64,000 nt of DNA, taken from Acidobacteriota bacterium (lineage in GTDB: Bacteria; Acidobacteriota; Terriglobia; UBA7540). Each line of letters begins with the position of its first letter. Positions within the stretch are counted from its first letter, which is position 1. Positions 8,207 to 39,271 of the stretch are shown piece after piece. A program made the position numbers and the translations under genes. The stretch spans positions 1 through 64,000 of the forward strand of contig CADDZE010000011.1 of the NCBI GenBank assembly GCA_902812465.1, given 5' to 3'. Below the pieces are notes generated by a model, which saw only the letters and a program-made list of their open reading frames with translations, did not search any database and was not told the DNA's origin.

Positions 8207-8270
8207 GTTTTTACAAACAAAGCCGTAATGTCATTTAAAATCAACAGTATACATTCTATGGAAAAATTGG
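8207..8270 (+). repeat. Dispersed repeat, copy 1
   Basis: The copy has a T-run, then the invariant core ACAAAGCCGTAATGT, then exactly 19 nt between AATGT and ACATT, then a TATGGAA tail. It begins 2 nt after the stop codon of the STGPRT-family gene. Four other copies occur at 8421, 38470, 38608 and 38836. Confidence 0.8.
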
Positions 8271-8420
8271 ATTGCTCGGACCTCGTATGCTTAGCCAGTG
8301 AGAACCGGAAGGCTATTGGGCGGAGGCCGTCCGCAGCTACCGGAGGAAGGTCCCCCCAACCGCGAGGCTAAGAGCACTCTACCCGGCGGTTGCCGGTATC
8401 GGTCGCATGCCGAAGTGGCC

Positions 8421-8484
8421 AATTTTTCAAACAAAGCCGTAATGTCACGGCTGATCAATGAGATACATTTTATGGAAGAATTCT
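8421..8484 (+). repeat. Dispersed repeat, copy 2
   Basis: This copy has the same core (CAAACAAAGCCGTAATGT), the same 19-nt gap to ACATT, and the tail TTATGGAAGAATTC. It lies 214 bp from copy 1 in the same orientation. The roughly 150 bp between the two copies shows no gene. Confidence 0.8.
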
Positions 8485-8517: not shown

Positions 8518-9177
8518 TCAACGAGCAGAATGGCCGCCAGGATGTTGGCAGCCGGCGTAACTGTCCCAGGCCACCTGACCGGTCCAGCCAAGTTCTTTCA
8601 GGCCGACCTCGGAGGAATAGAAGGCGGTGCTGACCCAGCCCTTAATGTCCTCGAAGTGGTCCCTAAGTGTCAGAACGGGCTCTCCGTTGTTCTTGGCCGG
8701 CCCTGGGCGCCGTCTGCGCCGCCGACCTCCCCCTTCCGCCGGCTGGCCGGGCGGCGCCGTTGATGCGGCGGTGAGAATCGCATGCTGTTGGTCCTCGGTA
8801 AGGGCCTTGAAGGGCGCGTTGTAGCGGGTAATGGCTTCGTGATCGAAGGCGCTGAGCGCAGCGAGAAATTTCTTTTGGTTTTCGGGCGAGTCCACGGCGA
8901 TCAGCGCATCCAGAAACCGGGTAACCCCTGCTTGAGTCGAGTTGGGGACAATTCGTTCCGCCAGGACCGTGAGGGTCTCACATTGGTGTGCGTCAAGGAA
9001 CTGCGGCTCCCAACCGGCCGACGCGGGCTCCTGGTGAGCAACGTCAATGTTGGCGGAACTTGCAGGATACGACCGCGCCGCACGGGCGGCCGGCAAGGCC
9101 AATCCTGCCCCGGCGGCGCTTCCCAGCAGGCGCTGGACGGCCTGACGGCGGTTGAGCGCTCGCGGGTGTGCATACAT
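8518..9177 (-). CDS. Gluconate 2-dehydrogenase subunit 3 family protein (Tat signal)
   Basis: About 219 residues. The N-terminus, LNRRQAVQRLLGSAAGAGLA, is a twin-arginine signal. The body matches the small subunit of gluconate/glucose 2-dehydrogenases (FLDAHQCETLTVLAERIVP). An Arg/Pro-rich low-complexity stretch (about 150-167) interrupts the domain before the conserved C-terminus, GWTGQVAWDSYAGCQHPGG. In the characterised FAD glucose dehydrogenases this subunit carries the signal peptide and exports the catalytic subunit with it. A GMC catalytic subunit without a signal lies divergently at 9488. I chose the ATG at 9177, which has GGAG upstream, over the GTG at 9204. Confidence 0.8.
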   Translation of the reverse strand: MYAHPRALNRRQAVQRLLGSAAGAGLALPAARAARSYPASSANIDVAHQEPASAGWEPQFLDAHQCETLTVLAERIVPNSTQAGVTRFLDALIAVDSPENQKKFLAALSAFDHEAITRYNAPFKALTEDQQHAILTAASTAPPGQPAEGGGRRRRRRPGPAKNNGEPVLTLRDHFEDIKGWVSTAFYSSEVGLKELGWTGQVAWDSYAGCQHPGGHSAR

Positions 9178-9487
9178 GTTAGGGCTCCGGTCTAGTTTGT
9201 TCACGCAGTTTCACCTTGTTGGGTTGTTAGACTCTGTCGGCCGACAACGCCGAATGTATCATCCGCTTTATTTGAATACAACTCTCTTGAACCTTACAAG
9301 CAGAGTTGGCGTATATTGAGCTGTTGCGCCGCTACCCCTTCGCCCCGCCGGGCGCTGGTTCTCCCAACTAGATCCATTAGCTGCCTTTCGCGGGTAGGCG
9401 TGGTGGTGGTGGGGGGCGCGCGCTTTAAAGTGTTTGCCGTCACCCAGTTGGCTCATGCTCGCCGGGTGACGCACCGAGGGATCATCT

Positions 9488-35998: not shown

Positions 35999-38360
<2,362 letters not shown>

Positions 38361-38469: not shown

Positions 38470-38534
38470 AATCCTTCTAAAAAACGTAAACCATTCATTC
38501 CAGGCCACATTACGGCTTTGTTTGCGCGAAAAGC
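38470..38534 (-). repeat. Dispersed repeat, copy 3
   Basis: On the minus strand this reads TTTTCGCGCAAACAAAGCC, then GTAATGT, 19 nt, then ACGTT (one change from ACATT) and TTTTAGAAGGATTT. It is the most diverged 3' half of the five copies, but the core is unchanged. Confidence 0.78.
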
Positions 38535-38607: not shown

Positions 38608-38672
38608 GGAACCCTTTCAAAAATTGTAACACATTGATTCGAAGCCACATTACGGCTTTGTTTGTAAAAGAG
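38608..38672 (-). repeat. Dispersed repeat, copy 4
   Basis: On the minus strand this reads CTCTTTTACAAACAAAGCC, GTAATGT, 19 nt, then ACAATTTTTGAAAGGGTT. The core starts 140 bp from that of copy 3. Confidence 0.8.
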
Positions 38673-38835: not shown

Positions 38836-38902
38836 TTTTCTTCCAAAAAATGTAACTTGTTCATTCCAACCAACATTACGGCTTTGTTTGCTGAAAAAGC
38901 AG
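38836..38902 (-). repeat. Dispersed repeat, copy 5
   Basis: On the minus strand this reads CTTTTTCAGCAAACAAAGCC, GTAATGT, 19 nt, then ACATTTTTTGGAAGAAAAG. The core is 226 bp from that of copy 4. This copy is closest to the consensus. Confidence 0.8.
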
Positions 38903-39007: not shown

Positions 39008-39271
39008 TCAATTTGCCGAGGGAACGAGAATGTGGACGTAGCGCCCCATGCGGCCCTTGTCCTCGAACTTAACCACGCCCGAAACTTTGGCAAACAGGGT
39101 GTCATCGGAACCGATTCCGACATTCTCGCCGGGCTTCAGCCTTGTGCCGCGCTGCCGGACCAGGATGGAGCCACCGGTCACATATTGGCCGTCGAACCGC
39201 TTGACGCCCAAGCGCTGTGAATTGGAATCGCGCCCGTTTCGCGAGCTTCCAAGCCCTTTCTTGTGTGCCAT
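39008..39271 (-). CDS. rpmA: 50S ribosomal protein L27
   Basis: This 87-residue L27 reads [20 protein letters not shown], then [20 protein letters not shown] and [14 protein letters not shown]. The N-terminus carries no Firmicutes-type cleavable extension. It lies 38 bp after rplU, the near-universal arrangement, and contributes its N-terminal tail to the peptidyl-transferase centre. Confidence 0.96.

Follow-up and report, generated by a model that had tools for sequence, protein, structure and literature searches.

The window, a 64-kb stretch of acidobacterial DNA from the genome under study (G000), carries five exact copies of a 15-nt core, ACAAAGCCGTAATGT, which lie in two clusters of two and three copies (Table 1). 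An earlier note on this DNA had described them as a dispersed repeat sharing one core, and the core was confirmed at all five positions. In 100 dinucleotide shuffles, at most two core matches were found, even when three mismatches were allowed. The 19-nt spacing that the note had placed between the core and an ACATT-like block was likewise exact, in five of five window copies and in 37 of 37 exact copies across the genome. The first cluster begins 3 nt past the stop codon of a small open reading frame that has no Pfam match, and the second occupies the rpmA–obg gap, which is ~650 bp in this genome. The statement that all copies point in the direction of the flanking genes is true of the rpmA–obg cluster and fails for the first cluster, whose downstream gene lies on the opposite strand.

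Table 1. Repeat copies and neighbouring features in the 64-kb window
Feature	Position	Strand	Remarks
Small ORF, 112 aa	7866..8204	+	contains ANRANACKSTGPRTERGKQ; ends directly before cluster 1
Element copy 1, cluster 1	8207..8265	+	T-run, core 8217-8231, AATCA, ACATT, GGAA tail
Spacer, cluster 1 copies 1/2	8267..8418	+	genome-unique; RNA structure not unusual
Element copy 2, cluster 1	8421..8479	+	core 8431-8445; 214 bp after copy 1
Gluconate_2-dh3 family gene	8518-9204	opposite to cluster 1	downstream of cluster 1
obg (GTP1/OBG GTPase)	37329..38360	-	downstream of cluster 2; PF01018, E 9.6e-63
Element copy 3, cluster 2	38473..38531	-	core 38507-38521; ~110 bp upstream of obg start
Element copy 2, cluster 2	38613..38671	-	core 38647-38661
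Element copy 1, cluster 2	38839..38897	-	core 38873-38887; between rpmA and obg
rpmA (ribosomal protein L27)	39008..39271	-	upstream of cluster 2; from translation

A scan of the whole genome, proposed in the earlier note, added 44 copies to the five of the window and supports the view of a dispersed, directional and unrecognised repeat. The exact core occurs 37 times in the 3.9-Mb genome, compared with no occurrence of a reversed-pattern control, and exact searches did not find it in 60 relatives. A sequence-only profile (R1) recovered 47 strong copies, scoring >40 bits, after which the score dropped sharply to two weak but still recognisable copies on contig 16, 239 bp apart. Together, the 49 copies form 28 intergenic clusters of one to three copies each. 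Neighbouring copies within a cluster follow one another in steps of 128–226 bp and have identical orientation in all 20 pairs, whereas 49 randomly placed copies give at most two neighbour pairs.

The full element is ~58 bp long and reads TTTTT-nn-CAAACAAAGCCGTAATGT-nnCYTRn-AATCAR-nnRGWT-ACATTTTWTGGAAG. Along its length, the informative columns form the T-run, CAAACAAAGCCGTAATGT, nnCYTRn, AATCAR, nnRGWT, ACATTTT and WTGGAAG, with successive conserved blocks roughly one helical turn apart. Conserved columns run from roughly -10 to +48 relative to the core, with no conservation outside them, and the conserved inner part measures ~35 bp. Among the 47 profile-found copies, 46–47 agree at each of 14 of the 15 core positions; the invariance therefore does not simply arise from searching for exact matches. 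At position 9, 40 of the 47 have T, so that the core is invariant, as the note had it, among the five copies of the window and not genome-wide. The tail falls into subclasses, namely TACATTTTATGGAAGAA, TACRAAATAACGKAGAA (clusters C3, C31 and C19) and TTGTAAATTTTACA (clusters C30a, C51 and C59). The string WATCARNNNNWTR occupies a fixed position in 32 of the 47 copies, compared with six sites on both strands of the whole window. AATCAR-N4-WTR, in constant register in 32 of the 47, corresponds to a relaxed IHF/HU consensus, as a consensus match only, and the exact consensus, WATCAANNNNTTR, is matched in sequence by 12. In this respect the element resembles an IHF/HU-type bending site, and it departs from a plain site of that kind in that most copies fit the relaxed consensus only and carry the 15-nt core in addition.

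Matches of R1 in sister genera (other G numbers denote relatives) were numerous but weak, and a second model, R2, was built on the core that these genera have in common, AMAAAGCYGnWATGT-N2-YYTRGAATCAR. This diverged core is patchily distributed in the taxonomic family to which G000 belongs, with 0 to at least 145 copies per genome, and is present in five or more of its genera. R2 matches 16 of 39 family genomes, with 47 copies in G000, at least 120 in G010, at least 145 in G024, 22 in G015, nine in G021 and few or none elsewhere. Across the phylum, under stricter filters, R2 found nothing in 396 genomes apart from its own, and R1 gave one weak match in 297. The phylum itself, Acidobacteriota, was deduced from VWFA-related and ADOP-like genes recognised by their sequences in relatives. 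Four exact pattern matches in unrelated genomes lack most of the remaining element and look like chance. In ~46 of 65 cases from three sister genomes, element and downstream gene share a strand, and no copy lies inside a predicted gene. G010 and G024 hold the units in composite arrays with steps of 52–76 bp and have few element loci in common among those sampled; one clear pair of loci lies upstream of the same gene.

The earlier note had presented AATGT and ACATT as a dyad, and by inspection this weak internal dyad is the sole inverted feature of the element. Among the 37 exact copies, the five positions of its right half are A in 28, C in 33, A in 34, T in 28 and T in 32. Covariation between the copies was at shuffle level. 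An RNA hairpin formed by AATGT/ACATT and CYTR/YRAG was rejected, with 77.2% of cells paired compared with 77.1% in shuffles. In sister genera, the ACATTTT part is missing and the core persists. Because the pairs do not covary and relatives have mostly lost the right arm, the evidence does not support the dyad as what defines the element. RNAalifold predicted zero pairs from the element copies, and Rfam contained no match for the element. The spacers between copies were also rejected as structured small RNAs, their folding stability having a mean z of 0.06. The element might still be thought to act as RNA in 5′ leaders, as a riboswitch, a protein-binding leader or a small RNA array, and its sense orientation upstream of genes would suit such a role; given the lack of covariation, of an Rfam match and of spacer structure, we disfavour this reading as the most improbable of those considered.

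Genes around the clusters were called by hexamer-based predictions made in this analysis. Of 27 clusters for which a call could be made, 25 have a downstream gene on the element's own strand (one-sided binomial ~3e-6), and the median distance from element to start codon is roughly 80 bp. This sense bias and distance are what an alternative-sigma or activated promoter would show, in which the T-run would serve as UP element, CAAACAAAGCCGTAATGT as activator site or -35 region and TACATT as -10 region, with transcription starting near GGAAGAA. The TACATT segment is indeed -10-like, with T33 in 47 of 47 copies and T38 in 38 of 47. However, its second position is variable (A in 36 of 47), inspection of the consensus revealed no TTGACA-like -35 hexamer 16–18 bp away, and sister genera have lost the ACATTTT part although the core persists. 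Arrays of two or three copies at 128–226 bp, and a window cluster that faces a convergent gene, also fit a promoter poorly, and we consider it unlikely.

The spacers are 66–164 nt long and non-coding, with a G+C content of 0.60 compared with 0.61 for the genome. They have no copies at other loci of the genome and no similarity to each other within clusters. The elements themselves are more alike within a cluster (77.2% identity) than between clusters (70.2%; 0 of 2,000 permutations), unlike their flanks, which are no more alike in the same cluster than elsewhere. Same-orientation arrays with unique spacers recall site-specific recombination sites marking short non-coding cassettes, as in integrons, and at two loci in different genera the element lies 3–15 nt past the stop of a similar small open reading frame. 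In that case AATGTnnCYTR and nnRGWTACATT would be the two arms bound by a recombinase, with a 7-bp centre between them, an assignment to which we give little credence. The attC-type ends RYYYAAC and GTTRRRY are absent from the consensus on inspection, there is no conserved fold, and the arms are not conserved in relatives. Copies in G010 are only 52–76 bp apart, and the spacers are non-coding. A phage search with the first 815 nt of the spacer set, and a plasmid search with cluster 1, gave no match. These findings make recombination sites very unlikely. Equally improbable is a novel site-specific system that adds a ~58 bp site plus a unique non-coding spacer, always in the same orientation, before genes; if it existed, which we doubt strongly, it would assemble short unique cassettes into directional arrays and be related to neither integrons nor CRISPR.

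The genes downstream of the clusters are unrelated and belong to no common pathway. They include rpoC (inside rpoBC), sufD (inside sufCD), obg, mutS, metG, asd, rarA and rseP, as well as genes for FTCD, an FTR1 permease, an OPT transporter, SCO1, a carbonic anhydrase, a histidine kinase and an ABC-2 permease. Such heterogeneity, operon interiors included, would be expected of a non-autonomous mobile intergenic repeat of the MITE, REP or BOX type, spread by a putative mobilizing enzyme, tolerated mostly in the sense orientation and without host function. The rpoB–rpoC gap measures 426 bp in this genome and contains two copies; it is 63–93 bp in five relatives, and 154 bp in G024 and 201 bp in G010. 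Upstream of obg, where the gap is also long, the repeat is absent from the nine relatives examined. At one locus (contig 30, locus L030, cluster C30b), the final codons and stop of dxr are encoded inside the element, which suggests insertion at the gene end. The absence of the repeat at obg in nine relatives and the few loci shared even by two genomes of one genus together indicate strong turnover, and copy number is patchy between genera. Against mobility, a scan of 6,475 k/offset combinations gave no signal of target-site duplication at the element borders, where direct or inverted duplications were also lacking. Inspection revealed no terminal inverted repeats, the T-run and GGAAG ends not being inverted copies of each other. 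RAYT/Y1 transposases (PF01797) number 0 in this genome, which carries 49 copies, and 11 each in G004 and G008, which have no element match; an origin from RAYT/REP was rejected for want of a Y1 transposase here. Neither outcome that the earlier note had named as refuting it was observed, as further copies exist and these searches, with that of Rfam, revealed no transposon or integron signature. Moreover, the extra DNA at the loci is larger than the elements and unique each time, clustering is far above random, and a conserved core with unalignable flanks and within-cluster relatedness is not what recent independent insertions would produce. Strong turnover, positions inside operons and the heterogeneity of the genes nevertheless make a mobile, mostly neutral repeat a close second, possible although not probable. 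Were it mobile, its spread would have involved none of the features by which known bacterial intergenic repeats are defined: terminal repeats, target duplications and a transposase.

Several such repeats invite comparison. REP and BIME sequences, known from enterobacteria and Pseudomonas and linked to RAYT, are short, dispersed and intergenic and often form small arrays, as the element does, and some BIMEs carry IHF sites. BIMEs and REP-associated transposases have been described (PMC2817692). Unlike them, the element is not palindromic, has a single orientation per array, faces genes from upstream, has no predicted stem-loop and resides in a genome without a Y1/RAYT transposase. Correia/NEMIS, RUP, ERIC and CIR are likewise dispersed intergenic repeats; one Correia/NEMIS form bears an IHF-binding site, and CIR is listed without terminal inverted repeats (PMC2229807). 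The element differs from these small MITE-like repeats in that neither terminal inverted repeats nor target-site duplications were detected and in that it forms directional tandem arrays with unique spacers. BOX, a modular intergenic repeat near genes and in that sense similar, has a boxA-B-C structure, and the element has neither internal modules of that type nor RNA structure. BOX and RUP of Streptococcus pneumoniae have been analysed (PMC3049150). Our search of the literature on the core strings and on Acidobacteria repeats found no description of the family. These 58-base repeats are a new, previously undescribed family, and their mechanism remains a proposal.

We tentatively favour the interpretation that the element is a ~58 bp DNA recognition site for a putative sequence-specific DNA-binding protein, acting in cis. 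This preference follows from the contrast between conserved elements and unalignable spacers, the within-cluster relatedness, the direction and the upstream position; the inner core common to at least five genera also counts for it. The putative protein would bind single sites or directional tandem arrays of two or three. The resemblance of WATCAR-N4-WTR to the IHF/HU consensus points to a possible bent nucleoprotein complex, in which this block would bend the DNA in the IHF/HU manner. As the arrays immediately precede genes and are oriented towards them, they most likely influence, in cis, how the downstream gene is transcribed, and may serve as regulator or insulator sites. The conserved sites, unalignable spacers and within-cluster relatedness fit old duplicates held by constraint, and we infer that the arrays grew by local duplication with occasional dispersal, after which the spacers drifted. 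Weighing against a recognition site, the downstream genes form no evident regulon, arrays lie inside operons (rpoB–rpoC and sufC–sufD), where separate control would be odd, and turnover of loci is strong. If the elements are protein sites, a cis-element found genome-wide in one acidobacterial family precedes core genes and also stands between rpoB and rpoC. The 15-nt core is sharply defined, which makes the nature of the element directly testable.

Further observations concern neighbouring sequences and relatives. The small open reading frame before cluster 1 and another in G001 (L192:2561-2926) are different but have a common ANR.NA..S.GPRT..GK motif, and in these two genera such frames end 3–15 nt before a same-strand element. 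The window's frame was rejected as a partner of the element, as two other homologues in G000 have no copy next to them. In G001 (L191, ~2871 and 3208), another intergenic motif in tandem, CCTACAATGTTGnTGAAAAAnAAGGnGTTAG, stands beside a core-like element, and recA of G003 (L196) has a single, diverged element ~140 bp upstream. A composite repeat of 420–510 bp, 87–94% identical between loci and made up of degenerate core units, four to five in each, is present in G024 (L198, L199 and L200); the arrays of composite type in G010 and G024 did not resolve into a single autonomous element. Finally, a subfamily, AAAGCTGAAATGTnCTTTGnAATCAA (G010 L100, L102 and L106; G024 L125), has a 3′ flank in common and is often followed by a convergent gene, and its G010 copies have a hairpin-like sequence upstream.
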